Shown here: one piece after another, positions 10,087-60,613 of the stretch
How the letters are laid out: each line of letters opens with the position of its first letter
Position numbering within the stretch: the first letter of the stretch is position 1
DNA from: Spiroplasma litorale
GTDB taxonomy: Bacteria > Bacillota_I > Bacilli_A > Mycoplasmatales > Mycoplasmataceae
Assembly: GCF_001267155.1 (NCBI RefSeq)
Contig: NZ_CP012357.1
Coordinates: 682,001-746,000, forward strand
Length of the DNA stretch: 64,000 bases
Direction of reading: 5' to 3'
Notes under the pieces: model-generated
Told to the model about the DNA's origin: nothing
Database searches by the model: none
Seen by the model: the letters and a program-made list of their open reading frames with translations, nothing else
Translations under genes and position numbers: made by a program

Positions 10087-12291
10087 TTAAACTAATTTTG
10101 GTTTAATTATGTTTTCTTTTATTTCCAAATTGTGTATGTTATTAAAATATAGATTTTTAAAATTATCTAAATTATTTAATTTTATAAACTCAATTTTGCT
10201 AACATATTTAACAATGTTATTATAATACTTTATTGTTTCGTCTGAAATTTCTTTTTGACTAACTTCAAGTTCTTTTACTAAGACATTAAATTTATCTTTT
10301 AAAATATTAATTTTACTTAATCTTCAATCATTTTCATTAGATTGTTTAATTAAAATATTTCCTTTTTCTTTTTTTTCGCTATTACTCATAAGCAACATTT
10401 TTTGTCCTTTATTAAATAATGAAGCATTTCTACTTTCTCTTAACTCTAAAAATCTATTTATACTATATTCTATATTTGTTTTTTTAATACTTAATTTATA
10501 GTGTTTTTTAGTTTTTGGTGCTAGTTCTTTTAGAGTGTTCAATGTTTTTATTATTTCTTGATAAGTACTATTTAATTCTATTTGTCTATCTGATCTAATT
10601 TCTTTAAGGTTTTTTATTAAATCTTTATTTAAATCCTTATCTTTTATATCGTTTTTTATATTAGAAATAAGTTGTAATAATTTAGGTTCTAAAATTTTAT
10701 TTATTTTTAATAATTCATCTTTTAATGTTTTTATTTCATTAATTAATTCTTCTTTATTACAATTTTTTTTGTTTGAGCTTTTAATTAATTTTATTAATCC
10801 TTGAGCGGAAAAATCATTTAATCCTTTTAAATGTTCTGATTTTGCAAGTTTTTTTGTTGTTTTAATTGCTAATGATTTTTCTGTTTTTTCTTCTCTTCAT
10901 AAAAAGAAAGTTATTAAAATACCTAAAGATAAAGAAGCTAAGTCTATTACAATAGCTAATATCAAATCATCAGTATATGCTAAGAAACCAACAATTCCAC
11001 CTAATCCGGCTAAATTATCAAGCGTTACTTTAAATATACCAATTAATCAACCTCCTATTCCACCTGCTAGAACACCAGTTAAAAATGGAATACCTTTTGG
11101 TAAATTAACCCCGTATATACATGATTCTGTTGGACCCGAAATTACTCCCGGTAATGCGGCAACAAATGCAGCAGATCTATCGATTGCTTTTTTTGATTTT
11201 ATTCCAACTGCAATTGTTGCACCCATTTGTGCTCATGCGGCTGCAAATGCAGCTGCTAAAAATATTGACGGATTATTGTTTACTGTTAAATCAGCTACAG
11301 CTGCAAAGAATAATATGTTATGAACACCTAATACAACAAGCGGTTGTCAAGTAATTCCAACAATTAATGCTCCAATTCCTATCGGTAAATTCATAAACCA
11401 ATTAAATGCATTTAATAATGCATTTTCAATTATTCCCATTATAGGACCCATTATAAAGAATGCTAATAATCCACCTATTAATAATGTTAAAAAAGGATTT
11501 AATATAAAATTGGCTACGGGGTTGAAATATTTTTCTATTGCTTTTTGCATATAAGCAATTATTATTCCCATAACAATAAATACCAATATTGTTGAATAAA
11601 ATGGTTTTAAAGTTATTTGTCAATTTCCTAATTTTATTAAATCTAATCCGCTTTCAGGTATTATTGGCGAAACCATTATCAATGATAATGCAACTGCTGT
11701 TGGTACTTTTCCACCCAAATACCTTACAACAGATCACATAGCTACAACACCCATCATTTTAAATCCGGTTGAAGCAATGATGTTAAGTACATAATCAAAT
11801 ATATTATAATCTACACCTAATATTGCACCAGCTTTAGTTGGATCAGAACCAATTTTTGTTCTTATTAATAATTGTTGAAAAGCCATTATTAGACCAACTC
11901 CAATTAAAAAAGGAATTAATGGACCAAAAAATGCTGATACTGATTTTATAAATTTTCTTCATAATGATATATTTTTATCTTGAACAATTTTTTTAGCATT
12001 GAAATCTGATGTATTTTGAGATTTAGTCACAGTAGTCGTAAGATTACTTTTTAAACTTTCTGTAATTTTAGAAACCTCAGCTCCAATAATTAATTGAAGT
12101 TCTCCATTTGATCATAATGCACCTTTTATATTTGAAATTGTCTTTAATTCATTTAATTTAGCTAAATCCTGATTGAATAATGATAGTCTCATTCTTGTTG
12201 CACAATGATAGACATCTTTAACGTTATCAGGACCACCAATTTTATCTAAAATATTTTGAACTAAAATATCTTTTTTTTCAATTTTACCCAT
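10087..12291 (-). CDS. PTS EIIBC permease with long C-terminal coiled-coil tail
   Basis: A 734-residue PTS permease of the glucose/sucrose superfamily. EIIB comes first, with phosphorylated Cys30 in VYHCATRMRLS and a GELQLIIGAEV segment. EIIC follows from about residue 100 with about ten membrane segments and the loop GALIVGITWQPLVVLGVHNI. There is no EIIA, so a separate EIIA-Glc would be needed. From about residue 462 (FLWREEKTEKSLAIKTTKKL) to the end the protein is Lys/Glu/Asn-rich and predicted helical or coiled coil, roughly 270 residues that normal EIIBC proteins of about 480 lack. The ribosome site AAAGGA precedes ATG 12291. It lies between deoR (38 bp) and pfkB (25 bp), which suggests a ketohexose-type substrate. 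Confidence 0.88.
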
Positions 12292-14903: not shown

Positions 14904-16367
14904 TTATCAAAGTTTACTTCCATTACTGTCAGACATTAATTTAAATCATTTTCCTGACTCTTTTATTTTTCTCGATTTATCCCCTTTTCCAAAATCATCA
15001 ATATTTACAAAAATTAAGCCATATCGTTTAGACATTTCTTTTGATGACATACTAACTAAATCAATAGCTGTTCACATTGTATAACCTATACATTCAACAC
15101 CATCTTCATAAATAGCTAATAAAATATTTTTCAAGTGATTTTTTAAATATTCAATTCTGTAAGTGTCATTTAATGTGTCATTATTAACATCTCATTTTTC
15201 ATCAACACCAATTCCATTTTCAACAATCATTAAAGGTTTTTTATATTTATAATATAATTCATTCATAAAAATTCTTATACCAATTGGATCAATATCTCAA
15301 CCTCATTCAGTTGATTCTAAAAATTTATTTTTAATTCCTGTTTCATATTTAACTAAATTAGTAGAATTGTCAATAAATTTATTTAAACAAGATGAATAAT
15401 AAGAAAATGAAATATAATCAACTGTGTTATTAGACAATATTTTTAATTCTTCTTCATTATAATCTAGTTTTATATTATTAAATGCAAAGTATTTTCACAT
15501 GTATTTTGGATATTTTCCATCTGCAATTACATCATAGAAAAATCATTTATTTATTTGAGAATATTTTAAGTTAGCTAGAGCATCTTTTGGGTCTGGACTT
15601 GCAGCATATGAATGTGATGCAGCGTTCATTGAACCAACCTTATTTTCAGGATTTATTTCTTTTGCTAGTTTTACACATAAAGCTTGTGCTACAAATTGAT
15701 TATGAACAGCATTATATAATTTTTCTAATCTATTTGGATCATTTTCATCAATTGTAAATCCTGCGCCAGTATAGCTTGAATGAAGTGTTAAATTTATTTC
15801 ATTAAAACCAATTCAATATGTTGTATATTCTTTAAATTCATTAAAAACTACTTTACAATACTCTAAGAATTTATTAATTGATTGTTTATTTAAAAAACCA
15901 TTATATTCTTCAAGTAATCATATAGGATAATCATAATGAGATAAAGTTAAAACAAGCTTTATATTATGTTTTTTTGCACATTCAAATATTCTTTTATAAT
16001 GTTGAATTGCAAGATCATTTACAACTCCATCACTTTTTGGAATGATTCTGCTTCATGAAATTGAAGTTCTAAAAGTATTTAAACCAACTTTTTTAAACAA
16101 CTTAAAATCTTCTTCATAATTATTATAAAAATCTATACCTCATCTAAATGGAAAAATACCATCATTATTATTTTTATTTTTTAAATATTCTTCAGTTGAC
16201 ATTTCTAACCAATTTAGTTTTGTATCTTTTCTGTCTAGATTTGGATTATAAGTTTTAAAATCTGCTACACACAAACCCTTCCCATCTTGGTCATATGCAC
16301 CTTCATATTGTGTTGAAGCTGCAGCACCACCAAACATAAAATCTTTTGGAAATTTGTAATTCTTCAT
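14904..16367 (-). CDS. GH1 6-phospho-beta-glucosidase
   Basis: A 487-residue glycoside hydrolase family 1 enzyme. It starts KFPKDFMFGGAAASTQYEGA, has the acid/base Glu in GFNEINLTLH near residue 187 and the nucleophile Glu in MIVENGIG near residue 384, and the C-terminal GYTMWTAIDLVSMSS typical of 6-phospho-beta-glucosidases. It is cytoplasmic and cleaves phosphorylated beta-glucosides delivered by the PTS. Its ATG overlaps the PTS stop codon by one base (TAATG), and the ribosome site GGAGCT lies inside the PTS gene, so the two are tightly coupled. Confidence 0.94.
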
Positions 16368-18901
16368 TATTTAGCTCCTTTATTTTTATATTCTTTAAAG
16401 ATATTTTTTTCTTCTTTATTCATTCCATATAATCTAGTATCTTCATAACCATATGATATATCTACTGAATGAATTGCATTTCAATATCCATTTTTAAAAT
16501 TATTTATATAAGGTATGTTAAATTTATTATCAATTTCATTTATTTTTTGTGAAACAATATTTTCAACACTTTTTATTTTTTCATTATAAGCGTCAATTAT
16601 TTGTTTATTATTTTTTGTATATTCTTGTTTATCAAATACTAATTTTGTTTTAATTTCAGCTAAAGAATAATTATTATACACTTTAACTAATCCTTCTTTT
16701 TTCTCAATACTTTTAGTATCATTTTTATTTTCAAGTCTTGATATTTTTTTATACATATTTTTTTTGAAATTATCTTCTTTTTGTTCAACTTTCAATAATT
16801 TATTTTCTATTTTTGTTACATATTGTAAGTATTTTTCATAATTAGCCAGTTCTTTTTTACTGTTTAAATATTCTTTATTAATAAACTCTAATTCTGATTT
16901 AACATCTATATTTTGTTTAAAGTTTAAACTAAATATATGTTTTTTTAATTTATTAGATATTTTTTTAGCATACTTATACTCCATGATTCTTTCTCTATAA
17001 AAAAGCATAGAAAGCAGTATTCCTGAACCTAAACTGACGAGTGATCCAATAACAAAATACAATTGATCAAGTCCATCTAATCCCATAGGATATAGTATTC
17101 CATCACCAACAAGTCTTTTTAGTTTAGCACCCAATATTCCCATTACAAGTCCACCAAATGCACCTGAAACACAACCAACTAAAAATGGTCTACCTTTAGG
17201 AATGTTTACACTATATAAAATAGTTTCAGTTATTCCAAAAGTTGCACTTGGTAAAGTTCCAATTATAATTGTTTTAAAATTTCAGTTTTTAGTCATTATT
17301 AATACACCAATTGCAGCACCAATTTGACCTCAAACTGCAGCTTGTCCACCTGGTAGTATTAAACTTTCAGCACCAGGAACACCCGCTAATAATTGTGCTT
17401 GTAATGTAACATAAACCGCAACATGTACACCCATAAGAACTAATGGTTGTATTATAAATGCAAATATTGCAACCCCAATTCCTATTGGTCAATTTTCTAC
17501 AAACCCAATTGCTTTAGCAACACCAATTTCAACTAATGATAATAGTGGTCCTAGAATGAATAAAGTAGGAAGTATTGTAATTAGTATTACTAGAGGATAT
17601 CTAAATACAACATCAACTGTTGTAGGCATTCAAGTTTTAATTCATTTATCAACATATGTTGATAAAAAACCAATCAATATAAATGGTAGAATTGAACCTT
17701 CATATGATCTAACAGTTACTGGAAAGTTTCCTATATTAAATAAAAATCAACCTGAAACTCCATAATTTTTATCTATTACATATGTACCAAATTTATATAA
17801 ATTTGGGTCCGACACTCCAGCTTGGAAATAAAATCTTGATACAAGTAGCAACCCTAAAAGTGCACCCAATAAAATATTTCCACCCAAATATTTAACTGTA
17901 TTCATACAAAAGAATACACCCACTAATACTAGACCTGTTTTACTTAATATTTTCATTATTGTAGAAAACATATTTGAATCATCATTTGCATTAATAACAT
18001 TAGTAGCCGCAAACAAAGCATATATTGCAGATAGAATTCCTGAAGCTAAAATTATAGGAACATTAGGAGCCATTATAGCTGTTATTACTCCTAAAGCTCT
18101 TTTTGAGAAAGGTGGTTTTAGTTTTGTTTTAGCTGATTTATTATTAATGTTTTTATCCATATTAATAATTTCATCTTTAACTTTGTAACACTCACCACCA
18201 ATTATAATTTGTAGCTCTAAACCATTTCAAACTACACCTTTTACAAGTTTGTTTTTTTCTATTTGTTTAATATCTACTTTTTCTTTATCAATGATAGAAA
18301 ATCTCAATCTAGTCATACAATTATAAACATCTTTGTAATTTTGTTTACCACCAATATTTTTTATAAAATATTCTGCTGCAATTAAGTATTTAGATTTATA
18401 TAGTTTTAAGTCATCATTATTTAAAGCTTTTTCATCTTTTTCTTCATAACAAACTTCAAATAATACATCACCTTTTTTTACATCACCACTTTTTAAATTA
18501 GTTATATCATATTCATAATCACCACTTATTGTAATTGGAGTAGCAATGCTTATTTCATTTTTTTTAATTAGTTCTAAATCAACATTAACAACAAGTTTAT
18601 TTAAATCAACTTCTTCTCCCTCAACAACTTTAGTATCAAAAGGTTTACCTTTTAATTTAACTGTATCTAATCCCATATGCATTAATATTTGATTTTTAAA
18701 ATTACTATTTTGAAAAAAATATGCGTGTTTTGTATCAAATATTTGTACAACATTTCCACAATCTAATATAGAATAAAAATTATTATTTTTAGGATAAAAG
18801 ACAATTCCTTTACCTAAAAAACCTTCTGAAAAAACACCATCATTTAATTTAGAAAGTTCTTCTACACTACCATCACATGGGGCAAAAACCTTTAAGTACA
18901 T
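16367..18901 (-). CDS. Beta-glucoside PTS EIIABC with coiled-coil tail
   Basis: An 844-residue three-domain PTS permease in the order A-B-C. EIIA: the phosphorylated His75 in ILMHMGLDTVKLKG and the supporting His59 in TKHA. EIIB: Cys195 in VYNCMTRLRFS. EIIC starts near residue 255 and holds about ten membrane segments, with FIIQPLVLMGVHVAVYVTLQ as the conserved loop. From about residue 637 onward (YRERIMEYKYAKKISNKLKK) about 207 residues are Lys/Glu/Asn-rich and helical; standard BglF-type proteins end near residue 620-640. The gene precedes the GH1 gene with a one-base overlap, which supports beta-glucoside uptake. No anti-terminator gene is adjacent. Confidence 0.9.
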
Positions 18902-37687: not shown

Positions 37688-40207
37688 TTATAAATCAATA
37701 CTAAATCATTTAACATTTGAATTTAAATTATTTACTAGTTTTATATATAATTTTGGACAATTTCAATCTATATTTTTTATATAGTAATCATTTTTATTTC
37801 CTTCTGCAATTCTTAATATTTTATTTGAGTAATCACCATATATTTCATAATATGAATATAAGTCTGAATCTTTTAATAAATTATCAAAATTTAATCGGTA
37901 ATTTCTTAAACCACTATCTCTGCTTATATCTAATTCTGATGTTACTTTATCAAAATTGTACGTGCTATTAGCAACTTGTGAGTCGCTATTCAATACTTTC
38001 ATTTCACCAACTTTAACTGTACCTTTACCACCCTTAAAGTTAATTCCTAATTTTGATATAGGAGCGCCACTATTTACTTCACCAGTTATTCTTGTTCAAT
38101 CATTTTCTAATTTTTTTGTAGTAGTTTTTGTTGCTTCTAATGATTTTTCATTATCTTTAGTTGTATCATAAATTACTTTAATTGATTCTGGATCTAAATC
38201 ACCAGTTGTTTTAACCACAAATTCTACTTTTTTATTTTTATTTGCAGAGTAGTTTGAACCCATTATTCATCAATCATAGTTAGTGCTTGATTCTAGATCA
38301 AAGTCTTGAATTTCACCTTTATCATTAAAACCACTTCCTAAACTAATTGAATTACCTTTTAAATAAGGATTATAGTAGTCATAGTATCCAGAAACTTTAT
38401 CTGAACTTTGTAATTTTTGATCTGTTGAACTTGCAATTCTTCATTTGTATGTTGGTTGAACATCCCCAATATTTGAATTTGATCATGGATAGTTATCAAC
38501 ACTAGTTATTTTTCCATCATCATTAATTGAGTTAAACATTTTACCATTTCCAGTTGAGAAATTAGTAAAGAAAACATTATTGTTATCATTTAAAACAGTA
38601 TTTTCTTGAATGATATGTCCCATACCATAACTATATTTTTCTAGTTTTTTATTATCACTTGTGTAAGTAATTACACCTTTATCTTTTTCATCAAGGACTC
38701 TGTTATGTCCAGTATAAAGCATATCATCATACATTGCAGCTGAAACAAGTTTATATATGTCTCTTTCAACTTCAGTTACATTTTTTAATTGATCTCCTAA
38801 ACTATTTGCAACATCATATCCATCTTGTGAAGCAAACATCGCAACAGAATTACTAATTGCATTTTCACCTAATGAAGAATTATCATAACTATATTTAACA
38901 ATTGGTTTACCGTCACTTCCTTTTTCAGTTTCATCTTTATTACTGTATTTATAAGCAAGTTGTTTTGTATCATATCTTCCTATTCTATCCTTGTTATAAT
39001 AAATTTCTTCATTAACTCATCCACCAACATTGTACATATTAAATACTTTTCGTGCTGCTTCTTTATTGTTATTTGTAAATCTTTCAGAACTATTAAAATT
39101 TTGACCAAAATCTGATAAGAAATAATCTGAATTATTATAAAGTTCGACAGACTCGTCACTAGTTTGTTTGTTGCTATCATCCATACCAAGTGAACCATTA
39201 TTTTTATATGAAAATAATGTTAAGTTTTTTATATACGAATCATTTGAATTTTTAACTTTATTATTTCATTGTTTCATAATTTCAATAATTTTTTTATAAC
39301 TAATAATTGAACCATCTGGAGAGTATCCATTTGGTTCATTATTTCAAAACCATCCATCAAATTGATATTGTTTTGCTAAATCTATTAGCTTATCAACTAT
39401 TAAATAATTACCTGAACTATCTTGTTTTATGAAATCTCTAAGCATTTCAACTTTTAAACCATGATAACCATCCAAAAAAATGTTACCCAAAATCTTTGTA
39501 CCATTCATATGAGCTTTTTGTACTTCATTTGATGCTGGAGGTAAAAGAATTCCTTCATCAGCCGCTCCACCTCATGATACTGTTATATCATTGTATTGAT
39601 AGTTATTTATTCCTCTTGCATAAGCTCTATTATTACCAACTATTGTATTTGCAAGTGAAGTTGACTCAATAACAGTTGACATATTCATTTCTTGAATATT
39701 TTTATCTTGACTACTAATTCATTTTTTAGCAGTTTTAGTTGTTTTTTGAAGTGGTATTCTAGATACATTATATTTAGCGTCACGATCTGAATCATAACTT
39801 CAATCTAAAATACTGTTACTTTCATCAAATATATCACTCTTAGGAACAACTTGTAAGTCTTTTTTGAAATTACCATTTGGCATAAAGTGCGAGTTTAAAG
39901 GCACTCCTGTTGGAGATTGTTTTTTTACATCATTTGCAGTTTTAAAACTTGTATTAAAACTTGAATAATCAATATAATTTTTAGAGTTTTCTTTAGCCAA
40001 AGAAATATTTTTTTCAACATTGGTAGGTATATTTTGTTTAGTCGTATTTTGATAACCTTCAAAATAAGGTTCTTCTTTTTTTCAACTATAATCTTCTAAC
40101 TCAGATAAATCTGTACCATAAATAGTTTTATCACCACACGAAACTACCGCGGTCAATATAGGTGTTACTAAAAAAGTTACATTAAGTAACATAATTAATT
40201 TTTTCAT
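37688..40207 (-). CDS. GH85 endo-beta-N-acetylglucosaminidase lipoprotein
   Basis: An 839-residue surface lipoprotein: signal peptide MKKLIMLLNVTFLVTPILTA with lipobox VVS-C. The catalytic module (about residues 150-430) fits family GH85: NDITVSWGGAADEGILLPP, AHMNGTKILGNIFLDG, and the active-site strand QFDGWFWNNEPNG with the Asn and Glu (near residue 290) that GH85 uses for substrate-assisted catalysis. Such enzymes cut between the two core GlcNAc residues of N-linked glycans. The C-terminal 300 residues contain a beta-sandwich module (DYWWIMGSNYS-like, then KKVEFVVKTTGDLDPESIKV) that may bind carbohydrate. GGGG precedes the ATG. An ABC exporter follows. A role in releasing host glycans is inferred. 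Confidence 0.82.
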
Positions 40208-44388: not shown

Positions 44389-45909
44389 TTAAATAATATC
44401 TATATATTTATATTCATAATTTAAAATTAATTCATTTTTTGTTTTTATTAAAATTTTTTCTGATGATGTGTATTTTGGAAATTTGATTGATGAGTAAACT
44501 TTATTACTTGGAAGAATTACTTCTATAGTAGTTCTGTCGATAATAAATTCAATATCTATATTGTTTTTAATCACTTCATCTAAATACACTTCTCTTTTTT
44601 TTGAAAAAGTTTCATTATTAGTAAATATACTATTAAATCTAGTAATAATAATTACGCTATTAAAAATATCAATTAATAAATTAAATGAATATTCATTGCC
44701 AATTATTGAAATTTCAACTGTGTTTTCTATATTATTAAGTAACTCAATATTTATCTTTAAATTAAAACTATCTCCTTCAATATTTGTAATTTCCAATTTA
44801 TCATTATTAGAATTTAGTTTACCTTTATTTATTTTTTTATAATATTTTTCAGGTATATAAAACATACTTTCTAAAGTATATTCATTATATTTTTTAAATA
44901 GATTTAGTTTTCTAACTAATGACATGTTGCCTACCTTACCTTGATTTGGTACTGAGGTTGCATAATTCCAATTACTCATTCAACCGGATATAAATAAACT
45001 ATTTTTATTATTTTTTCATGTTGCAGCACCATAAAAATCAGGTCCAAAATCAACTCTTTTCGGATTTTGCTCGGGTATAAAAATTTTATTTTCTATATGT
45101 CCAACAGAATAATAAGTACCAGTTGTTAATCTATCATCACCTTCATTACCACCATAAATCAAAACTCATTTCTCATCGCTTGCAGAATTAGTTACATTAA
45201 TTTTAAATAAATTTGGACATTCTAACGTAGGATATGGCATTTTTAAATAACCAATATTTTCAAAGTTACCTAAGGGGTTTTTAGATGCGTAAATTCCAAA
45301 CCTATCGTTTTCTGCCAAGTATATAATATAATCATCTTTCATTTTTAATATTTGAGGATCTCTAAAATCTTTTTTTCCATTATTTAATTGTATTGGATAA
45401 TCAACTATAGGATTAAACTTGTACCCGTTGTCAATTGAATAATAAACCATTGTATTTTGACCTTTATCACTATATGCAGTAGCATATGCAATTATTGCAT
45501 TTGATCCAAATCCAAAATCATTATCAAAATCTTCATATATACTTCCTGTGGCTACATCACCTCATTCTGTTATATATTTTTCAATCGCAACACCCTCATA
45601 TTTTCAGTTAATAAAATCAATTGTTGTAACGTGATATCAAGATGTACCATTTCCACCTAAGTTTATCCCATTACTCATTAATTTTGCATCTTTATTGTAT
45701 AAAAAATATAAGTGTCACTTTCCTTCTCGAAAGAATGCTCCTTGTATATCATTCATCATACCAAAGTCTGGCATTTGTAAATGAAATTTGTTTTTATATT
45801 TATCCACATAAACCTCTGAACTATTTTTAAAATTATAAATAAAGCTAATTAGACCGCTTCCACAAATAATTAAAATTAATGACGTTAAAATTTTAATTAT
45901 ATTTTTCAT
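44389..45909 (-). CDS. GH32 beta-fructosidase (levanase/sucrase), membrane-anchored
   Basis: A 506-residue GH32 enzyme with an N-terminal membrane segment (MKNIIKILTSLILIICGSGL) that acts as an uncleaved anchor or a weak lipobox around Cys16. Catalytic residues: nucleophile Asp54 in FGMMNDIQGAFF, stabiliser Asp184 in KDFRDPQILK, acid/base Glu230 in TLECPNLF. The C-terminal half is the beta-sandwich module of GH32. It therefore cleaves fructose from sucrose, inulin or levan outside the cell. It follows gntR by 11 bp with GAGG as ribosome site, next to a sugar ABC operon, suggesting fructan use. It ends just beyond the IS element. Confidence 0.88.
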
Positions 45910-45920
45910 TAACTACCTCA

Positions 45921-46616
45921 TTATAGTCATCTAACTACATATTCGTTTAAAGTACTGCTATCAGATCACTGCATTGATATTTCAACTATTTGATTATCCC
46001 AATAATTAACAATATGTTTTTTTATGCAAAAATCTTTATCCTTATCAAATAAATCAATGTCTAATATATTTACTGTAGATATGTTAAATACATTTTTTGT
46101 TATTACTACATTTTTTAATCTAAAAAAATTATTTAAAGAAATTTTAATTTCATCATAGTCAATTTCTCCTACAATTTTTTTATTTATATATATAATTGAT
46201 ATTTTTTCAACTTTATTTTCTTTTTTTACAATTTTTTTAAAACATGAAAAATCTTGAAAATTAATGACTCTATTGGATATATTTAATTTAGTTAAGATTT
46301 CTAAAATTTCATTTGCATCAAATTTATGTATTAATATTTCACTATTATAGGTTTTATCATAAGTTTTTTTATTTTCTGTCAAAGCTTTAATGGCAAATAT
46401 ATTAACTGAATCTCTTACAAAATAACCCGACCCTTTATGGGATTCTATTAACTCTCTATTAATAAAATATGACATTACTTCTCTAACTGATGATCTAGTA
46501 ATTTTAAATTTTGTTGCTAAAAAATATTCTGAAGGTAATTTATAATTTTTTATATGAATATTTTCTCTAATTAATTTACGTATATAATCAATTACTTCAT
46601 TTCTTTCATTTCCCAT
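45921..46616 (-). CDS. GntR-family (HutC-like) transcriptional regulator
   Basis: A 231-residue protein. The GntR winged helix is clear: VIDYIRKLIRENIHIKNYKL, PSEYFLATKFKITRSSVREV, SHKGSGYFV. A UTRA-like effector domain follows (about residues 75-231). The end is reached by reading two TGA codons as Trp. It lies immediately upstream of the GH32 gene in the same direction and downstream of the ABC operon, so it probably controls fructoside uptake and hydrolysis. A partial palindrome TTGGTTATCAACAA near 46637-46650 in its own promoter could be an autoregulatory site. Confidence 0.88.
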
Positions 46617-46756: not shown

Positions 46757-47836
46757 TTAATCAATTCTTTTCTCGGTGACTGCATCAAATAAATGATATT
46801 TATTAATTTTTAAACCGTAATCTTTGCCAAGTTGTTGAATATTTGCAAAATTTTCAATTGTCACAATAAAATTTTTATCTTCTTCATATTCAAATGTTAA
46901 TTGAGTATTAATACCTAATGATTCTTTATTTCTTAGTTTTAATATAATATCAGGTGTTTTTTCTTCTAGCTTAATGTCCTCTGATCTTATTCCAATTGCA
47001 AGATGCTCAATTTGATTATGATTAATATTTTTAATTTGAGAGTCGGATAATTTAAATTTAATTTTGAATTGCTCATTTATAAAGTATCCTTCTTTAAAAT
47101 CACCCGTAACAATATTAATAGTTGGTGAACCAATAAATTTTGCTGCAAATAAATTTGCGGGTTTATTATATAATTCCTCAGCTTTTCCAACTTGTTGAAT
47201 TACTTGCTCATTCATTAAAACGATTTTTGTTGCCATAGACATTGCTTCTAGTTGATCATGAGTTACATATATTGTTGTTGTTTCAAGCATATTATGAATT
47301 GTAACTAGTTCAGTTCTCATAGTTTCTCTAAGTTTTGCATCTAGGTTACTTAACGGTTCATCCATTAAAAATAGTTTTGGTTTTTTTACAATTGCTCTTC
47401 CTAATGCGACACGTTGTTGTTGTCCCCCACTTAACTCTCTTGGTTTTTTAAATAAATATTTTTCAATTTTAAGCATCTTAGCAGCTGCTCTAACCCTATA
47501 ATTTATAACTTCTTTTTTTTCTCTTTTTAGTTTTAAACCAAATGACATATTTTTATAAACTGTATAGTGTGGGTACAATGCATAACTTTGAAAGACCATT
47601 GCAATATCTCTATCTTTTGGTAATAAATTATTTGCTTTTTTACCATCAAATAATAAATCGCCTTTTGTAATGTAATTAAGTCCAGCAATTATTCTTAGTA
47701 ACGTTGTTTTACCACAACCAGACGGACCTAACAAAACACAAAAGTCTTTATCTTCAATTGCTAAATTTATATTTTCTAAAGTATAAAAGGAATTTCCTTC
47801 ATACTTTTTAGATATGTTTTTTAATTCTACTTTCAT
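46757..47836 (-). CDS. Sugar ABC transporter ATPase (MalK/MsmK type)
   Basis: A 359-residue ATPase: Walker A LGPSGCGKTTLLRI, Q-loop VFQSYALYPHYTV, signature LSGGQQQRVALGRA, Walker B LFLMDEPLSNLDA, switch His in YVTHDQLEAMSMA, and the C-terminal regulatory TOBE domain that marks sugar importers (IGIRSEDIKLEE). The start at 47836 is supported by AAGGA; a longer upstream frame (to 47923) runs into the permease gene and is rejected. It is the last gene of the ABC operon, four bases after the permease stop. Confidence 0.93.
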   Translation of the reverse strand: MKVELKNISKKYEGNSFYTLENINLAIEDKDFCVLLGPSGCGKTTLLRIIAGLNYITKGDLLFDGKKANNLLPKDRDIAMVFQSYALYPHYTVYKNMSFGLKLKREKKEVINYRVRAAAKMLKIEKYLFKKPRELSGGQQQRVALGRAIVKKPKLFLMDEPLSNLDAKLRETMRTELVTIHNMLETTTIYVTHDQLEAMSMATKIVLMNEQVIQQVGKAEELYNKPANLFAAKFIGSPTINIVTGDFKEGYFINEQFKIKFKLSDSQIKNINHNQIEHLAIGIRSEDIKLEEKTPDIILKLRNKESLGINTQLTFEYEEDKNFIVTIENFANIQQLGKDYGLKINKYHLFDAVTEKRID

Positions 47837-47840
47837 ATTT

Positions 47841-50246
47841 CTATCCTTTCTCTTTATTTCCTGACATTCCATTTGAAATTGTGTTTTGTAGTCCAATAAA
47901 CAATAACATAAGTGGAACAGCAACTAATAAAGCACCTGCCGCATATGCACCTTGTTGTAACCCGGCTTCACCAGCTGATAATGACGCTAAACCGACAGCT
48001 ACAGTCATTTGTCTTGTATCTCCAAATAATATACTTGGTCAAAATACATCACCAAATGGTCCAATAAATGATCAAAGAGCAATAATTGATAACATTGGTT
48101 TTGCCAAAGGAACAACCATTCTTCAATAAATTTGAAAACTATTACATCCATCAATTTTAGCGGCATCATCAATTTCACGTGAAATATTATCCATATATCC
48201 TTTTAATACAAATGCATTACCAGGTAAGGCTCCACCAGTATATATAAGTATTAACATCAAGTTTCCATTGATACCAACACTAGTTTGTAATAATGAATAC
48301 ATTATATAAAAGATAATAAAACTTGAAATAGTTGGTACTGATTGTATTATAAATACCATCATAAGACTTAAATTTTTTCCTCTGAATCTATATCTACTAA
48401 ATACATAACCAATAATCGAAATTAGTACCACGACAAGTAAGGTTGTTATTATTGCAATTATAACTGTATTGTAAAGTCATGTTCCAAAATATGTTTCATT
48501 AAATAGATATCTAAAGTTAGCTAAGGAGAAATCGAAATCAGTTAAGACAAAATATGCAAATCTTCCAGAGTTTTCATATGATGAGTAATAGTTAAAAGCC
48601 TGTACAAAAACCTGTGAAATTGGATAAACAATTATTAGAACTCAAATTATTATTAATAAATAACAAAAGAACATACCTATTTTTCCTGAAGTTGTCAAAG
48701 GTGGTCTATCTAATAAATACAATTTTGTTTTGTGTTCTGTTAAAAATGTTACTAGATTATTCTCTTTTTTTAAATTATTAACACCTAAATTATCATGAAT
48801 TTTTTCCAACATATTATTTTGAACAATAACCATATTATCATATGAAAATTTTTCATTAATAAAAGATAAATTTTTTCTTTTATTTTTTTTCAAGCGATCA
48901 TATTCATACATTTCATTGTTATAAAATCAATATGTCAAAACATCACACATAAGTTCTTTATCAATAGTTATAATTTTATCTAAAAAACTTACAATTCTTT
49001 TAGATTTTTCAAGGTAAGATAATTTAATATTATCAGTACATTTTATTGAAAATACTTCTTTTAATTCATTATCGTTTAAACCAAATTTTATAAGTTTAAA
49101 TTTTAATATATTTTCTATTATAGTTTTGCTTTTAAGTAACGTATTATTATGTGAATCATTTTTGTAATCAAAAGATAAATATAGTGCCAAAAACTTTATA
49201 AATATTACAATGTCATAATATTTTTTATACGGAATATTTTTGATTTTAAATAAATATTCAAATACATTTGTTAATCTATCACTTTTATCATATTTTTTGT
49301 AAGAAAATATTAGGGAATTTATATCGCTTCTATTAATATTATTTAAATCTTTATATTTGTCTGCTCCAATAAATTTAGAATATTTTTTTAAATAAGTTAT
49401 TTCACTATGAATTGATTTCAATATTTTTTGAGATGTACAACCATGCATTTTAGCTTGTCTTGAAGCTTTTAATTTTAATAATTGTTTTTGAACAACATCT
49501 CCAAAAGTTTTTTTATGATTATTTGTTTGAATACTAATAAATATTTTTAAAATATTATTTTTTAAATTGCTGTCTAGTTGAAGGTTAGAAACATCATTTA
49601 TAATATTTCTTAGTTGATCTTCTAAACTATTTCTTAAAAAATTTTCATTTAAATTAAGAGATTGAACCATTGTTTCTTCAATCAGAGTTTTTATTTCAGC
49701 TTTTATTTCATAACTAAAAATAAACATCTTGAATAATTTATCTTTTAAATAAAGTTGTAAATCATTTGTAAAATACTTAGATATTGTTTCATATATTTTA
49801 TATATATATTTTTTATTAAAATATTTTTTTAAACCAACTTTTAAAATATTATCAACAATTTCATTAATTTTATACTGATCATCATCTGATATATTTAAAT
49901 CGTATTTAAAGTTTCACATTTCATAATCAATGTCATCATTAAACTTTAAATAAACATTTTCATACAATTCTATAATAAATTTTTTTCAATTTTTATTATA
50001 ATCTTCTTCACTAGCTGTAAGTTTATAAACGTCTAATATTGAAAATAAAATTTGATTGTTTTTAATAATACTTTTATATAATAAATTATTTTTTTTATTT
50101 AATTTATTTAATAAGAATGTCTCTAGGTATTTATATTCTTTACTAAAACTATTTTTTTTATAAACATAACACTTATCTAGAAGGAGCTCATCAAATACAT
50201 AACTTTTTAAATTAATATTATTTATTTCCATTACTTTATTATTCAT
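47841..50246 (-). CDS. Sugar ABC permease (MalG type) with about 510-residue N-terminal extension
   Basis: An 801-residue protein. The C-terminal 290 residues are a normal MalG-type permease: six membrane segments from IGMFFCYLLIIIWVLIIVYP and the ATPase-coupling EAA loop REIDDAAKIDGCNSFQIYWR. Before it come about 510 residues predicted cytoplasmic, Asn/Lys/Leu-rich and helical, starting MNNKVMEINNINLKSYVFDE, with no recognised domain. Normal MalG proteins are about 280-300 residues. The frame is continuous only with TGA as Trp (three sites in the extension), and 802 codons fit exactly between start and stop. It lies 12 bp after the MalF-type gene and directly before the ATPase gene. Confidence 0.9.
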
Positions 50247-50258
50247 TTTTTCCTCCTT

Positions 50259-52496
50259 CTATTTATTTTTAAAAACTTTCATTCTTCTTAATGAAATTGC
50301 ATTTAATGCAACCACTATTGATGAAGAAATTAATAACATTGCAGCTGAGATACCATAATTATAAAAACTAGCTGTTGTTGATAATTTATATATAAATGAT
50401 ATAAATATATCTACAACTCCTGGGTTTCCTTTTAATGGAATACCTGCGGCATCAGTTGCAATAACATTTGCATTATAAAGTGCAATCATATTAAAGTTAC
50501 CAAAGTTAGCTATAAATGTTGCAAGTAACATGGGTGCGATTTGTGTCGCGATTATTGGGATTACAATTTTTATATTAAATCCAGCTCTTGAAGTTCCATC
50601 AACAATTGATGCTTCTTCTAAATCTTTTGATATTGTTTGTCTTATTCCTGTTACTAATAAAAAGAAATTAGATTGCGCAAGTCAAGCTTGAATAAATATT
50701 ATTGCTGTCCTTGCCTCAGACTCTTTAGTCCTTCAACCTGAAACACCTAAATATTTTTGAGTAAAATCATTAACTTGTTTAGATCCTAATAGAATACTAA
50801 ATACAAGTATTGTTATAAAAGAAGGTATGGCTCAAGGTAACATCATAACTAATCTTAGCAACGGTTTACACATTACTCTTTTATTATTCATTAAGAATGA
50901 TGCGGCTCACCCTGCAATAATTCCTCCAACAGAAGCTAAAATTGTTCAAATTAAAGTTCATTGTAATACATAAGCAAATGAATTTTTATATTCTCCTGCA
51001 AATAATGTTGTAAAGTTTTCAAATCCCACTCAAGATATATACTGATTTAGTTTAGCAGGGTCGTTACCTTTTCCATAATTTGTGAAAGCAATTAATACAG
51101 TTGCAAATATTGGCACTAATGATAAAAATATTATTGATAATATAGCTGGTAAACTTACAATATAGGGTACTCCTTGACTTGATAAAAAATTTCTAGTCTG
51201 ACTATTGTTGTGTGGTCTTGCACCCATATTTATTTGTTTATTTACAATTATCGAATCATATATATTACATATCCAATAACCTAAAACAAATGTTAAAAAT
51301 ACTATTGATAATACACCTTCTACTAAATAGTATCTTCCATCAGTATCTGGTCCTGGTGTACTTTTACCAAAATCACCTAAACCAAAAATACCATTACCTC
51401 CTATATTTATTATTCCTAAACTGTAAATTAAGAATATTATATTTAAAGGTAGCAATAATAAATATATAATCGCTTTTAAATTTTGTTTATGTATAAATTG
51501 CGACGCTCCTGGAATAAGCATAAATAATGTTGCTAACCAAATTGTTCTGCTTTTATTTTCTATTGGTATTTCATTATTTATTCTTTGCATACCATGTGCT
51601 CTATTTAATTTATTTTTTTTAATCTCTGAAATGTATGTAAATTTTTCAGATCTATAATCATCATAATTTTTTTTATAAATTTTAATCTTTGTAAATAAAT
51701 TTATTTTTTCTGTAGCATTAGTTTTAAATATTTGTTTTCTAAAATTTTTTATGTTATTTAAATGCGACTCTTTAATATTATTTATTTCATTATAATATTC
51801 TATGTCGACAATACATTTTTTATATTTATATTCATAATCATAATTAAAATCTTTATAGTTTTCATAATGACTTTTAATTTTGTTTAATTTTTCTAACTTA
51901 TCATCATTTTTAATGCTTATTATTAAATTTTTATATTCTTTTTTTTGTAACAATAGATTATTTTGTATAGTTTCAGATGAATATTTAACTTTTTTTGAGT
52001 ACATAATATCGCCGTCATTATTTAATAAAATGTCAAACTTCTTAACAATTTTTAGGGCCGATCTATGTGCCAAACTTAAGAAAAGAATGTTAATTTTTTT
52101 AATGTATTTATTTTTTAAAGAATACCATCTTAAAGTTCAATAATGTTCTTTTTTTTCAATGTATTCTAATTCTTTTTCATTATTAAATGTATCAGCTTTT
52201 ATATTTTTAAGTTCACTTTTTTTATAAAAAAATCTTCGTATAAATTGTTCATCTTTATTTTCTAAATAAGAATTTATTTTTTTAGAAGAAAATAAATTCT
52301 TATTATTTACATCGCCATTGTTTATAAATTGCATTTGTTTAACATTCACAAGAAAGGTTAAATCATTTTTTATTGTAGACTTTAGTTCCAAATATATTTT
52401 TTTAGCATAATCATTATTTTTTTTAGAGCTTTCTAATTGTGTTAGCTGCTTTTCTTTATTTAAAAAATCTATTTGGGAGTTGATAAAACTATTCAT
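50259..52496 (-). CDS. Sugar ABC permease (MalF type) with N-terminal coiled-coil extension
   Basis: A 745-residue permease. Residues 1 to about 190 are charged and helical (starting MNSFINSQIDFLNKEKQLTQ, and continuing through ELEYIEKKEHYWTLRWYSLK), followed by further helical sequence and then a MalF-like membrane domain: hydrophobic blocks LATLFMLIPGASQFI, IIYLLLLPLNIIFLIYSLGI and YIVSLPAILSIIFLSLVPIF. The EAA loop is DLEEASIVDGTSRAGFNIKI. A Gly-rich loop GGNGIFGLGDFGKSTPGPDT lies between segments. MalF-type permeases are usually 290-510 residues. Its start overlaps the preceding small gene by 8 bp and it precedes malG by 12 bp. Confidence 0.9.
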
Positions 52497-53034
52497 TTAT
52501 AAAACTCCTTTCTATTTATATACTTTTTTTATCTATTTTATTAGTTTGTTTTTTAAACATTGCTTTATTAAGTACATACTCTTTATAAACAAAATACATT
52601 ACTACACAAAAAGCTAAAAATATAATTAATGGGAAAATACTGGTAGCTTTAATACCTTTATCAAAAATTATTGGTGCAAATGCGTATCCTCAAAATATAA
52701 TTACTCAGAATATAATAAATATTAATCCAACTCTAACTTTTTCTCTGCTAGATAATAAAGAATATAAAACAAATATAAGAATAAAAGCATAAAATGAAAT
52801 AAATTGAACTATCCATGAAACAAATAATTTATTTTGCATCTCTTTGACTTTTGTTTCATTAAACTCTCCTTCAATACTTTGTTTTGCAATGCTATAAGAA
52901 TTAATATTTTGATACATAAATACTATTGTTGTGTAAAATACATAAATCAATGAAATAATTATTAATGATATAAAAAGTTTTTTATTCAAAAATATTTTTT
53001 TTGAATGTATATTTTTTTTATTTGTGTTTAACAT
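52489..53034 (-). CDS. Small membrane protein of sugar ABC operon
   Basis: A 181-residue protein with four hydrophobic segments (about residues 20-42, 73-93, 100-123 and 130-155) and basic ends, starting MLNTNKKNIHSKKIFLNKKL. The start is two bases after the binding-protein stop, and the end overlaps the MalF start by 8 bp, so it is translated as part of the operon. No known family. It may be an accessory membrane subunit linked to the enlarged permeases. The exact end depends on a T8 run at 52523-52530. Confidence 0.7.
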
Positions 53035-53036
53035 TA

Positions 53037-54689
53037 TTAACCAAATACATATAATTCTTTAAAGTGTTTTCATTGATTTATAAAATAATAAGTTAACGGA
53101 TTTAACTTAAAGCTTTTTCCGTTTGCATCAGTAGCATTTAAATCTAAGTTAGGTTTTTGAGGTGAAGCTTGATAGTTATGTCATAGTCTTACTGAGTCAT
53201 GATATGTATCTCAATATATATCAATTAAAGTCTCATCTGAACTAAAAGTAATTGATTTGTCAATACCTGTTGCTCCATAATCTTGATAATCTGAATACAC
53301 TCTTTCCATTCCTTCTAAAAGAACATTTGATAGTATTGTATTTTCTTCTTCTAAGTATTTTTGAGCTTCTATTTTGTTTTTTTCGTAAGGTGAATATCTT
53401 CCTAATAATTTTACTCACTGCGCTGAATATCTAGGTTGTGTTAACTCTCTAATAATCATTGCTGCTGCATCTTTTTTTGTCATCTCTTCACCATTATTTG
53501 TAGTTTCTGAAATTTTATCTATAGTTGTTTTAATGCCCATTCCAGATCCAATTTGAAAGCCGCTTAGTTTTGCAAGTTCTTGTTTAGATTCTTCTCCCCC
53601 AACTTTAACTCTAATATCTCCTAAACTAAGAGCTTTTAGGGGTGCTCCTTTATTCTTATCAGCTTGTGTTAAATAGGCTGTATATGCTGGTATTGAAACA
53701 GGTTGCAATATGCTCATACTAGTTTGTCCAATTTGAATTAATTCAATTTGTTTTGCAAATGATGTTGCAATATCGGTTAATGATTCATTTAAATCATTTC
53801 CTGTTGATAATGATCAATTAATTATTTGTTGAGCTACATCATTTAAATCTCTTATACAGTTCTTGTTTTCAAATATAGAATCATAATCAGATTTGTCTCT
53901 CGAATCTTCGGTTTGACTTTTATTTCAAATTACAGATGCTTTATTATTTAATGCCGCTTTTTTAATCTCTTCTTCATGTCTATTAACAATTATGTTCAAA
54001 AAAGGTGCTCCTGTTTCATAACTATTCATAATTTTTGTTGAAACAATCGGTTGTCCGGAACTGTTTTCAGAAGTATTAAGTTTTGTTATACCATCAATTG
54101 TTAAATCATATTTTTTTCCATTGTATAACATATATCCTTCGTCCGTATTAATAGTTAAATCTCTTGCGTTATATACTCATAAAATATTTTCAATTGATGC
54201 TGGAACATTATAGTAAATTCCATTTCTGTTATAACTTTTCCAACTTGTATTACCGTCAATTAATTTATCATTTGTAGAATCATATTTAATTTGGTATACA
54301 TCTTGATCTTCTTTATTTGTTGCATAATATTTTTTTATTACATCATTTAACTCTAATATATTTCCTTGTTGGATTTGAGTATTATATTGATCAGATTTTA
54401 TTGAAAAGACATCAGGAATGCTTCTTTCTCTTATTCCTTTTTTATTAATATTTCCAATGTTATCTCCAAGAGGTATAATAGTTTTTTCAGCTCTGAAACT
54501 AACTCCTAGTTCTTCAAATTTTCTATTAACTTCGTTTATAGCTTCGGTATAAGGACCTTCTATTTCATAATCAGTTTGAACTTTAATAATTGGTGTTTTA
54601 CCAAAACTACACGAAACACTAGTAGCAGTAATGATAATTAATCCTGTACCATAAGAAAATGATAGTAGTAATTTTAATAGTTTCTTCAT
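53037..54689 (-). CDS. Sugar-binding lipoprotein of ABC transporter
   Basis: A 550-residue solute-binding lipoprotein: signal peptide MKKLLKLLLSFSYGTGLIII and lipobox TSVS-C. The mature part has the cluster-B binding-protein features: IIKVQTDYEIEGPYTEAINE near the start, SIKSDQYNTQIQQGNILELN, and late APLKALSLGDIRVKVGGEES and MIIRELTQPRYSAQWVKLLG. ATG 54689 is chosen because of AGGAG upstream; an earlier in-frame ATG (54707) would add a non-signal leader. First gene of the operon binding lipoprotein, membrane protein, MalF, MalG, ATPase. Substrate probably an oligosaccharide, given its neighbour GH32. Confidence 0.9.
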
Positions 54690-54823
54690 AGAATAATCTC
54701 CTTTCACTAAAATTTTAATATATTTTCCAAAATTATATTATTTATAAGAAAATTTATTGTTTTCAAATTATTAACTTGTTGACAGGTTTTAAAGTTTTAA
54801 AATAATTTGTCTTTATAAATAAA

Positions 54824-54887: not shown

Positions 54888-55151
54888 TTATTTATTACAT
54901 TTTTTATGAACTGCTATTAAGTTATCACTTATGTTGCCGCCACCTTCTGATTTTGGTTTTATATGTTCAACATTTCAACAATTAGGATTGCTTTTTTGTC
55001 ATCCTTAATATGCTCCATATTCCATTTGCTTATTGCATGAACTACATTTTTTATGACCTCTTTCGCTTGAGTCTTGTTCGGCTCCACAATTACAGTTAGT
55101 TGCATTTGTTCATGCTTTTCTTGCATTTGCAGGTAAATCTTTTTTTGCCAT
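54888..55151 (-). pseudogene. Small HNH endonuclease-like zinc protein with in-frame TAA
   Basis: An 87-residue zinc-finger/HNH protein: NCNCGAEQDSSERGHKKCSS with four Cys, then GWQKSNPNCWNVEHIKPKSE and NLIAVHKKCNK with the HNH pattern (His in VEHIKP, Asn in DNL, His/Cys at the end). Codon 49 (55005-55007) is TAA, following MEYGAY, where relatives would carry Gln (CAA). A single C-to-T change explains it. The ribosome site AGAGGTG and a terminator are intact, so decay is recent. Its role would be DNA or RNA cleavage, but partners are not visible. Confidence 0.75.
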
Positions 55152-58095: not shown

Positions 58096-60507
58096 TTATA
58101 ATTTTGATTTAAACTCATTTACATATTTTATATGTAAATCTATTTTTTTGTTTATATATAACTCTTTATAATTTTTAACAACTTTATTTTTTTCTTGTTT
58201 TATAATACTATAAGTTTCTTTTTTACTATCTAACTTTGTATTATCAATATTTTGTTTAATATCATTTAATTTATTAATTTTATTTTGTTTTAGTTTAATA
58301 AAGTAATCTTTAGTTGATTGTTTTTGTTCAATTGTATTTTTTTTGTCTTTAACTTTAATTTCATTAAATACTGATTTTGCTAAAGTTAATTTATCACTTA
58401 ACTCTTTATTTTTAAGTTTAAGTTTTTCAATTAATTGATTTGTGCTATTTATATCATTATTTTTTTTAGCTAATTTAATATCATTTTTAATTTCTAATTT
58501 TAATTCTTTATAGTCATTTTTTGTTTTTTCAACATATATTACATATGCTTCTTTTAAAGAACCAATAGTACCTTTTTCTGATAATAATCAAAAACCATAT
58601 AATAATGTTGTTAATGCAGCACCGCAAGCAATTGCAATAAAGAAAATTATTGTTTGTTCACCATAAGGAACTGCTCCAAGAATTGCTACAATTGGTCCAC
58701 CATGTCCAGCATTATCTTGCACTCTAAATGCACCAGCGATACCACCGGCTAAAGCTCCTCCAAGAACATTACAAGTAATAGCTCTTTTTGGATCTCTAAT
58801 AGCAAATGGAATTGCTCCTTCTGAAATTCCAATCATTCCCATTACTAATGCACTAGCGCCCATTGATCTTTCTTGATCATCAAAAAATCTTTTAAATATT
58901 AATGAAGTTAATCCCATTCCAAGAGGAGCTACTGGTATTCCAGCAGCTAAAGCACCCATTGGTTCAGAAATTTGACTATCTAGTAAAGCAACACAAGTTA
59001 CAAAACCTATTTTATTAATTGGACCACCCATGTCAAAAGCAGCCATTGCACCAAGAACTATACCAAGTCCAAGTCCAAGTCCAAGTCCAATTGATTCAGA
59101 ACTATATGCATTTTTAATAGCTGTAGAAAATTGTTGCATAATTCATCCAATTGGACCACCAATAACATAAATGAATAATAGAGAAATACCGACTCCACCA
59201 ATAATTGGAATAAAGAATATTGGCATTGCAGCTTTTAATGATTTAGGTACTTTTCAAGTATTAACTCATTTTGTAAAGTAACCAACCAAAAGACCTGCTA
59301 TAATTGAACCAATAAATCCCATTGGTGTAATTACATCTGGCATTCCAGGAAGAGGCATAAAATTACTTGCATCATTACCAATAAATCCACCTACCAACGC
59401 AGGTGCTATTGCAGCTCTTCCTCCAATAGAGTTAGCTATGAATGCAGCTAAAATTGGAATCATCAAAGTAAATGATGCAGCTCCTATTTTTTCCATAACA
59501 GCTAAAGGGTTTCAAGGATGTTCAATATTATTTGGTCCTGCTGTACCTGCTGTAGGTCCTCAAATTGCCTTAGCAATTCCAAGAGATGCAGCTAAACAAA
59601 TACCTCCAAGAATAATTATTGGAATCATATAACTTATACCAGCCAATATATGCTTAATTAATCCTTGATTTTGTTTTTCAATTCCTTTTTTATTGTTAAA
59701 TTCAGAACCTAATTCACTATATATTTTTGCATTTAATAATGCTTCATCTAAAAGTTTTAAAGGATCTTTAACTGCTTTAGATATTTTTGTCTCATATAAA
59801 TTTTTACCAACAAATCTTGATTTATCAACATTTGTATCTGTTGCAATTAATACTAAATCTGCATTGTCAATCTCTTTTTGAGTTAGTTTTGTTCCAACGC
59901 CTTTAGATCCTTGTGTTTCAACTCTAATGTTATGACCTTCAATTGAATACTTTTCAATCAATCTTTCTTCGGCCATATAAGTATGTGCAACACCAACAAC
60001 ACATGCTGTTACTGCTACAATATTTAGTTTTTTGTTGTTTTTAATTTCTGATTTTTTAATATCTTCTTTGTATTCTTTTAAAAGAATTTCTTTTAATTCA
60101 TTTGTACTTTTTGCATTAATAAAATCATTTTTGAACTCTTTTTTTAATAGTTTAGTAGCTATTGAACTTAATAAATTCAAATGATCTTCATTTGCATTAT
60201 CTGGAATTATTAGACATATAATATATTTTATAGGTAATCCATCTAGAGAGTCTCACTCTATACCATTTTTATTTTTTACTATAACAACTGATGGTTGTGT
60301 TATATTTTTTACTTTTGCATGAGGGATTGCAAAACCATCTTCAAATCCTGTTGATGCTTCTTTTTCCCTATTTATAAAGGACTCAAATAATAAATTTGAA
60401 TCTTTTACAATATTTTTTTGAAACGCTTGTAATGAAACGAAATTTAATAAATCATTTTTATTATTAAAATCCGTATCTATAAAAACAAGAGTGTTCTTTA
60501 TATTCAT
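58096..60507 (-). CDS. fruA: Fructose PTS EIIABC with coiled-coil tail
   Basis: An 803-residue fructose-family permease in the order A-B-C. EIIA: His63 in GFAIPHAKV. EIIB: Cys169 in NIVAVTACVVGVAHTYMAEE (relatives usually have ACPTGIAHT). EIIC from about residue 280 with GAASFTLMIPILAAFIANSI and MGMIGISEGAIPFAIRDPKR. From about residue 641 a helical, Lys/Glu/Asn-rich tail of about 160 residues follows (LKEAYVIYVEKTKNDYKELK); standard EIIABC ends here. GGGAGG precedes ATG 60507. It lies about 100 bp after the RpiR gene. Its product, fructose-1-phosphate, fits the pfkB kinase at 9120. Confidence 0.92.
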
Positions 60508-60613
60508 AATTATTACCTCCCAAAAAAATAATAACATTTTTTTGTTATTTAAATTTTTATTGGAGATTTTTTTATTGTATTTTTTTCATAAAATAGAAAA
60601 TTTTTTAGATATG

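Follow-up and report, generated by a model that had tools for sequence, protein, structure and literature searches.

Paired N-terminal extensions on the MalF- and MalG-type permeases of a CUT1-type importer in Spiroplasma litorale

The importer operon and its extended MalG-type permease

The window analysed here is a stretch of 64,000 nucleotides from the genome of Spiroplasma litorale (contig NZ_CP012357.1, positions 682,001 to 746,000), to which all coordinates below refer. Read under genetic code 4 and in minus-strand order, it harbours genes for a lipoprotein, a 172-amino acid membrane protein, a MalF-type permease, a MalG-type permease, an MsmK ATPase, a GntR-family regulator and a GH32 enzyme, which follow one another with no large gaps. 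The lipoprotein (53037–54690, the end also being given as 54707) carries an SVSC lipobox and found no match in Pfam; it is presumed to be the sugar-binding protein. Just upstream of its gene, at approximately 54890–55150 on the same strand, a stop-interrupted reading resembles a small cysteine-rich HNH-type protein. The 172-residue membrane protein (52516–53034) is the 5′ neighbour of MalF, a protein of 745 residues (50259–52496) made up of a lysine-rich extension with predicted long helices (residues 1–305, 51582–52496) and a PF00528 permease domain (50259–51581). MalG, with 801 residues (47841–50246), is followed by an MsmK/UgpC/MalK-type ATPase of 359 residues (46757–47836), the GntR-family regulator (45921–46616) and the GH32 protein, a member of the beta-fructosidase family with an N-terminal hydrophobic segment (44389–45909).

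The MalG-type protein falls into two parts. The match to PF00528 (BPD_transp_1) covers residues 611–791 only, at 64.7 bits against a cut-off of 26.4, and lies within a permease domain of six transmembrane segments encoded at 47841–48698. The six hydrophobic segments begin at residue 523, no stretch within residues 1–512 reaches the transmembrane threshold (KD19 maximum 1.18), and the loop charges fit a cytoplasmic N terminus (N-in topology prediction). Residues 1–511 (48714–50246), which precede all of these segments, are therefore taken to be a cytoplasmic extension. It consists of a distal half (residues 1–245, 49512–50246), which aligns co-linearly in four genomes and is confined to a ‘long’ clade, and a proximal half (residues 246–511, 48714–49511), which represents the conserved core; a junction motif, LYLLDRP (48699–48719), stands just ahead of the first transmembrane helix. 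The original prediction of a MalG-type permease with a cytoplasmic N-terminal extension of about 510 residues is therefore confirmed by the open reading frame, the limits of PF00528 and the topology prediction, and the extension (∼511 residues) is indeed larger than the permease part (∼290 residues). The span first given for it, 48700–50246, stops short of the gene, which runs on to 47841.

The extension was also described as being in frame through TGA-Trp codons, and this is the case: the 801-codon frame contains eight TGA codons read as tryptophan, of which W87, W111 and W440 fall within the extension. At the base composition of the window, 510 open codons would arise by chance with a probability of ∼5e-19. 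A strong Shine-Dalgarno sequence, AAGGAGG (50252–50258), is located directly before the N-terminal ATG of malG and right behind the malF stop, and purine-rich, ribosome-binding-like sites occupy the same malG start in relatives. An internal translation start at the permease domain, with the extension left unexpressed, had been named as the observation that would speak against a full-length protein; no start signal supporting it was found, and in none of the nine relatives checked does a Shine-Dalgarno core accompany a conserved start codon close to the permease domain.

The MalG extension is under purifying selection. In the closest trio of genomes (G030, G077, G078) dN/dS amounts to 0.13–0.18 for the MalG extension, 0.13–0.16 for the MalF extension and 0.02–0.05 for the permease domains; these figures are rough, as synonymous sites are near saturation, and still show constraint on the protein. 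The MalG extension aligns co-linearly over 540 residues with its counterparts in G011, G003 and G028, the last of which belongs to another genus. Outside the closest trio, identity drops to 17–46% in the extension as against 41–79% in the permease. A frame artefact or a wrong genetic code is excluded by the conservation across genera and by the dN/dS values. Taken with the chance estimate, the Shine-Dalgarno sequence at the N-terminal start and the lack of one at the permease, the selection seen in close relatives implies that the extension is no artefact.

The operon has the composition of a CUT1-type importer, with a lipoprotein in the presumed binding role, a second permease and a MalK/UgpC-type ATPase. 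The EAA loop of MalG (E/D-A-A-x(2)-D-G...P-L-x(2)-P) is present as DDAAKIDGCNSFQIYWRMVVPLAKP, and its A-A, I-D-G and P-L-x-K-P elements are invariant across the six members of alignment A1. Against the NCBIfam MalG equivalog NF008231 the protein scores 114.3 bits, below the cut-off of 261, and MalF likewise reaches 114 bits against the MalF equivalog, whose cut-off is 392. On these scores the permease is classed as MalG-like, not as MalG proper (maltose). The junction ahead of the first helix has the consensus LxLSDxPP, with L511, D513, P515 and P516 invariant in A1, and a similar motif (..NxSDxKPPT..) is kept in MalG proteins almost devoid of an extension.

Family searches, partner extension and distribution

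The extension was said to have no recognised family, a statement that stands after searches of Pfam, NCBIfam and PDB sequences, in which no match was significant: hits were weak, mostly limited to a single member and at chance level. The candidates AP-2 mu, EAD11, CNK2_3 and DUF7390 each came from one member or had E > 0.01 and were taken as chance. A single-protein search of genome contigs with MalG retrieved ordinary permeases only. In composition the window MalG extension is 0.2% proline and 15% lysine, and the extensions generally are scarce in proline and glycine (0–2%) and rich in lysine and asparagine. A single-sequence AlphaFold2 model of the MalG extension contains almost only helices at a pLDDT of 36, which amounts to composition-level evidence; that of the MalF extension has a pLDDT of 51 and long helices with block means up to ∼80. 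Neither model is good enough to support a search by fold. The alignments contain no conserved catalytic-type motif in the MalG extension, where the invariant positions are scattered K/D/E residues and the junction TE...K..L.D.PP. When its two halves were compared with each other for signs of an internal duplication, a nine-row profile gave a probability of 6.6% and a pairwise E of 0.0016, and a four-row profile gave nothing. A literature search by title and abstract found no paper on MalG or MalF extensions; as far as such a search goes, they are undescribed and constitute new domains on a known type of transporter.

The ∼305-residue extension of MalF (gene at 50259–52496), which the original prediction had not mentioned, is distinct from that of MalG: a profile comparison of the two (hhalign) gave a probability of 0.1%, thus no homology. 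Profiles of the two extensions match exactly the same eight of 60 genomes of the window's family, in the same operons. Across operons a core of lipoprotein, small membrane protein, MalF, MalG and MsmK is kept, and within the family the MalG extension never appears without the small membrane protein, an MsmK of its own and an extended MalF. The extended operon is missing from most genomes of the genus. The 12 other PF00528 matches of the S. litorale genome are proteins without a comparable extension, some being fused permease pairs or having other long parts. Genome G011 also contains a plain MalF/MalG pair (494 and 323 amino acids), so that a single cell can have both the extended and the plain importer. 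Its third extended operon (L040, 5100–7415) is to judge from its sequence a decaying copy: stops and frame changes disrupt the extension as well as the permease part of MalG, and MalF and MsmK are open.

The MalG extension exists in two sizes. A long form of 511–561 residues occurs at four loci (the window, G011a, G003 and G028), the full-length homologues in the three other genomes being also given as 541–564 amino acids, and a short form of 271–284 residues, equivalent to the membrane-proximal half, at five further intact loci. The proximal half is hence found at nine intact loci of the family, and the distal half is absent from the short forms. The short form is also present in another family of the order, in G090 (E 7.8e-16), and probably in G204, which is weak alone (E 0.013); the two jointly give a probability of 97% and an E of 1.3e-11. 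A different arrangement characterizes the operons inspected in families f7 and f3: here MalF is typically 1013–1042 residues long with an extension of ∼570 residues, and MalG has ∼26–34 residues before the junction. Within this ∼570-residue extension, the final ∼150 residues are similar to the MalF extension known from the window's family (72% probability, E 3.5e-5), in the right position and order, and shuffled or reversed controls gave E values of 0.37–0.84. No homology was found between the MalG extension and the distal portion of these long MalF extensions, so that a literal move of the domain from one permease to the other is not supported.

Across operons the MalG extension ranges from 26 to 561 residues and that of MalF from 126 to 592, with a sum of 549–698 in most, 818–934 in the long clade and ∼400 in two. 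The small membrane protein (∼170 amino acids, no curated family) has matches in 64 out of 320 genomes from the order, through which many further operons were located. It is the 5′ neighbour of MalF in almost every extended operon inspected and is possibly an extra importer subunit. The original prediction had assigned the design to ‘this lineage’, a limit that proves too narrow, as three or more families of the order show this design. Beyond the order, no extended importer was found among the genomes searched; the MalF profile gave weak matches at class level (E 5e-6 to 5e-4), which probably represent nothing more than generic helices rich in lysine.

Trees built from the permease domains unite the long MalG form in one clade (99/99; 100/99 in the MalF tree) and the plain form in another (82/82 and 97/95), and the short form appears in several places. 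This pattern tentatively suggests that the short form is ancestral, the long form being derived by a gain of ∼240 residues and the plain form by loss; the order is tentative because the trees are rooted on a long-branched outgroup. In the plain-MalG clade MsmK is lengthened at its N terminus by a few tens of residues, which in most members include a conserved acidic motif (GFETIDLDKLVSEVG-like). The addition is seen only where MalG has no extension (L101, L102, L103, L105, L109 and L114) and is absent from the MsmK of the window. Individual operons show further peculiarities. At L103 (4027–5685, G171) an ORF that looks transposase-like by eye is inserted between the small membrane protein and MalF, whose N terminus is shorter, and at L112 (7619–8908, G140) MalG begins with ∼150 residues that seem unrelated to the helical extension and, in its place, resemble several membrane segments.

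C-terminal tails of ∼160–250 residues outside Pfam domains occur on three PTS proteins encoded in the window (10087–12291, 16367–18901 and 58096–60537). In the minus-strand EIIBC protein at 10087–12291 the tail comprises 254 residues (481–734), has no Pfam match and is conserved in 11 of 40 relatives; the other two, also on the minus strand, are EIIABC types with long lysine-rich tails. A phmmer comparison detected no similarity that would link these tails to the extension of either permease. The idea of a general design of cytoplasmic appendages on sugar transporters thus survives as a recurrent pattern, encompassing MalG, MalF and the three PTS tails; it does not extend to a single shared domain, as neither hhalign nor phmmer detected one.

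Possible roles of the extensions

The importer resembles the MalFGK2/CUT1 type I systems, such as E. coli MalG, B. subtilis MdxFG-MsmX and streptococcal MsmEFGK, in its permease domains, MalF/MalG pairing, MsmK/UgpC-type ATPase, binding lipoprotein and gene order. It differs from them in the ∼511 and ∼305 N-terminal cytoplasmic residues added to MalG and MalF, respectively, and in the small membrane protein before MalF. Regulatory domains on the ATPase are known from the C2 domain of MetNI, the trans-inhibition domain of ModBC, the CBS domains of OpuA and the C-terminal domain of MalK. The window importer shares with these systems a cytoplasmic domain added to an importer and a plausible feedback control; whereas their added domains are small and located on the ATPase, here they sit on the membrane subunits and span 300–570 residues. 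Closer at hand are the MalFG operons of other families (G176, G166, G298 and others), in which homologues of the small membrane protein, MalF, MalG and MsmK follow one another as in the window and the MalF extension is homologous in its membrane-proximal part. They differ in having ∼570 residues added to MalF, ∼30 to MalG and an N-terminal addition on MsmK.

The reading preferred here, at slightly less than an even chance, is that the extensions are paired all-helical cytoplasmic domains beside the MsmK ATPases, serving assembly or control of the importer and not catalysis. The MalG extension would be a folded all-helical protein–protein interaction domain of a CUT1-type (MalFGK2-like) Mollicutes importer. 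Together with the separate, probably coiled-coil, extension of MalF it would build a cytoplasmic appendage next to the two MsmK ATPases, which may hold the ATPases in place or curb their activity when imported sugar or phosphorylated metabolites accumulate. The helical fold, the contacts with MsmK and the MalF extension and the regulatory or assembly role are all inferred. In favour of such a role, the MalG and MalF extensions co-occur strictly in the eight family genomes, and the enzymes flanking the operon vary: GH32 in the window, GH31 and GH65 at L034, GH31 and GH13 at L064, an ADP-ribosylglycohydrolase at L035, GH38 at L038, GH1 at L040 and GH13 at L102 and L108. Because the operon core is constant and the flanking enzymes change, a function inside the importer is more likely than the docking of one catabolic enzyme. 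The purifying selection on the extensions, their paucity of proline and glycine, the almost purely helical models and the lack of a catalytic-type motif point the same way. The plain-MalG operons, with ∼570 residues on MalF and an addition on MsmK, look as if the same ATPase-side job were divided differently. Against assembly or control, the MsmK addition and the plain-MalG state coincide in one clade and may reflect a single evolutionary event; moreover, the low residue conservation of the extension also fits a loosely constrained spacer.

A bolder version of the assembly or control reading, which we consider doubtful, envisages a new Mollicutes module of type I ABC importers, split between permeases and ATPase in clade-specific proportions, through which the transmembrane subunits instead of the ATPases would carry a built-in regulator or a frame for assembly. 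The proportions found are ∼570 residues on MalF with ∼30 on MalG, ∼350 with ∼280, and ∼370 with ∼540.

Alternatively, the extensions might form a metabolic scaffold that channels imported sugar by docking cytosolic enzymes of catabolism or glycolysis, or else the HPr/EIIA machinery, at the pump. Large helical cytoplasmic domains without catalytic motifs would suit it, as would the long C-terminal tails, one of them conserved, on PTS permeases of the same genome. It is nevertheless unlikely, given that the flanking enzymes are entirely different among operons with homologous extensions, so that any docked partner must be a shared one, e.g. glycolysis, and given that the MalG extension, the MalF extension and the PTS tails are not homologous to one another.

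A spacer or elongated linker under little constraint, which AT-rich genomes would tolerate and which would have no specific function, could account for the fast divergence, the large length differences (26–561 in MalG, 126–592 in MalF) and the K/N-rich composition, but it is hard to reconcile with a dN/dS of 0.13–0.18 in the closest trio, the co-linear alignment of 540 residues across genera and the cross-family profile match at 97% probability (E 1.3e-11), and appears quite improbable. Comparably little credit is given to an anchor that ties the importer to the internal filaments or membrane organizer of wall-less cells. The confinement of the feature to the window's order among the genomes searched and the long lysine-rich helices of the MalF extension would agree with such an anchor, yet most genomes of the genus have no extended operon, though presumably they share the cytoskeleton, and among the PF00528 proteins of the window's genome only this type of transporter has the feature. 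That the extension acts as a separate protein, made from an internal start or freed by proteolysis, is very improbable: a proline-containing junction does lie immediately before the first transmembrane helix, but no stop intervenes, the nine relatives have no conserved start signal near the permease, and a search of the S. litorale genome with the MalG-extension profile recovered neither a further copy nor a standalone domain.

The sugar importers of wall-less bacteria with reduced genomes would be expected to be minimal; that of the window has instead gained ∼800 cytoplasmic residues, and each of its membrane subunits carries a conserved domain outside any known family. The extended importer looks like a lineage-wide modification of a well-known machine, with the domains on one or both subunits. 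Should they control the ATPases, this would be a new mode of regulation for a textbook transporter, located on the permeases; should they scaffold metabolism, they would provide direct evidence for channelling. Either way, a defined domain family is at hand with natural variants for testing: no, short or long extension, and MalF-heavy or MalG-heavy operons.

Elsewhere on the minus strand of the window, at 37688–40207, a gene encodes an 839-residue protein of GH85, the endo-beta-N-acetylglucosaminidase family, whose presence in a wall-less bacterium suggests glycan use.
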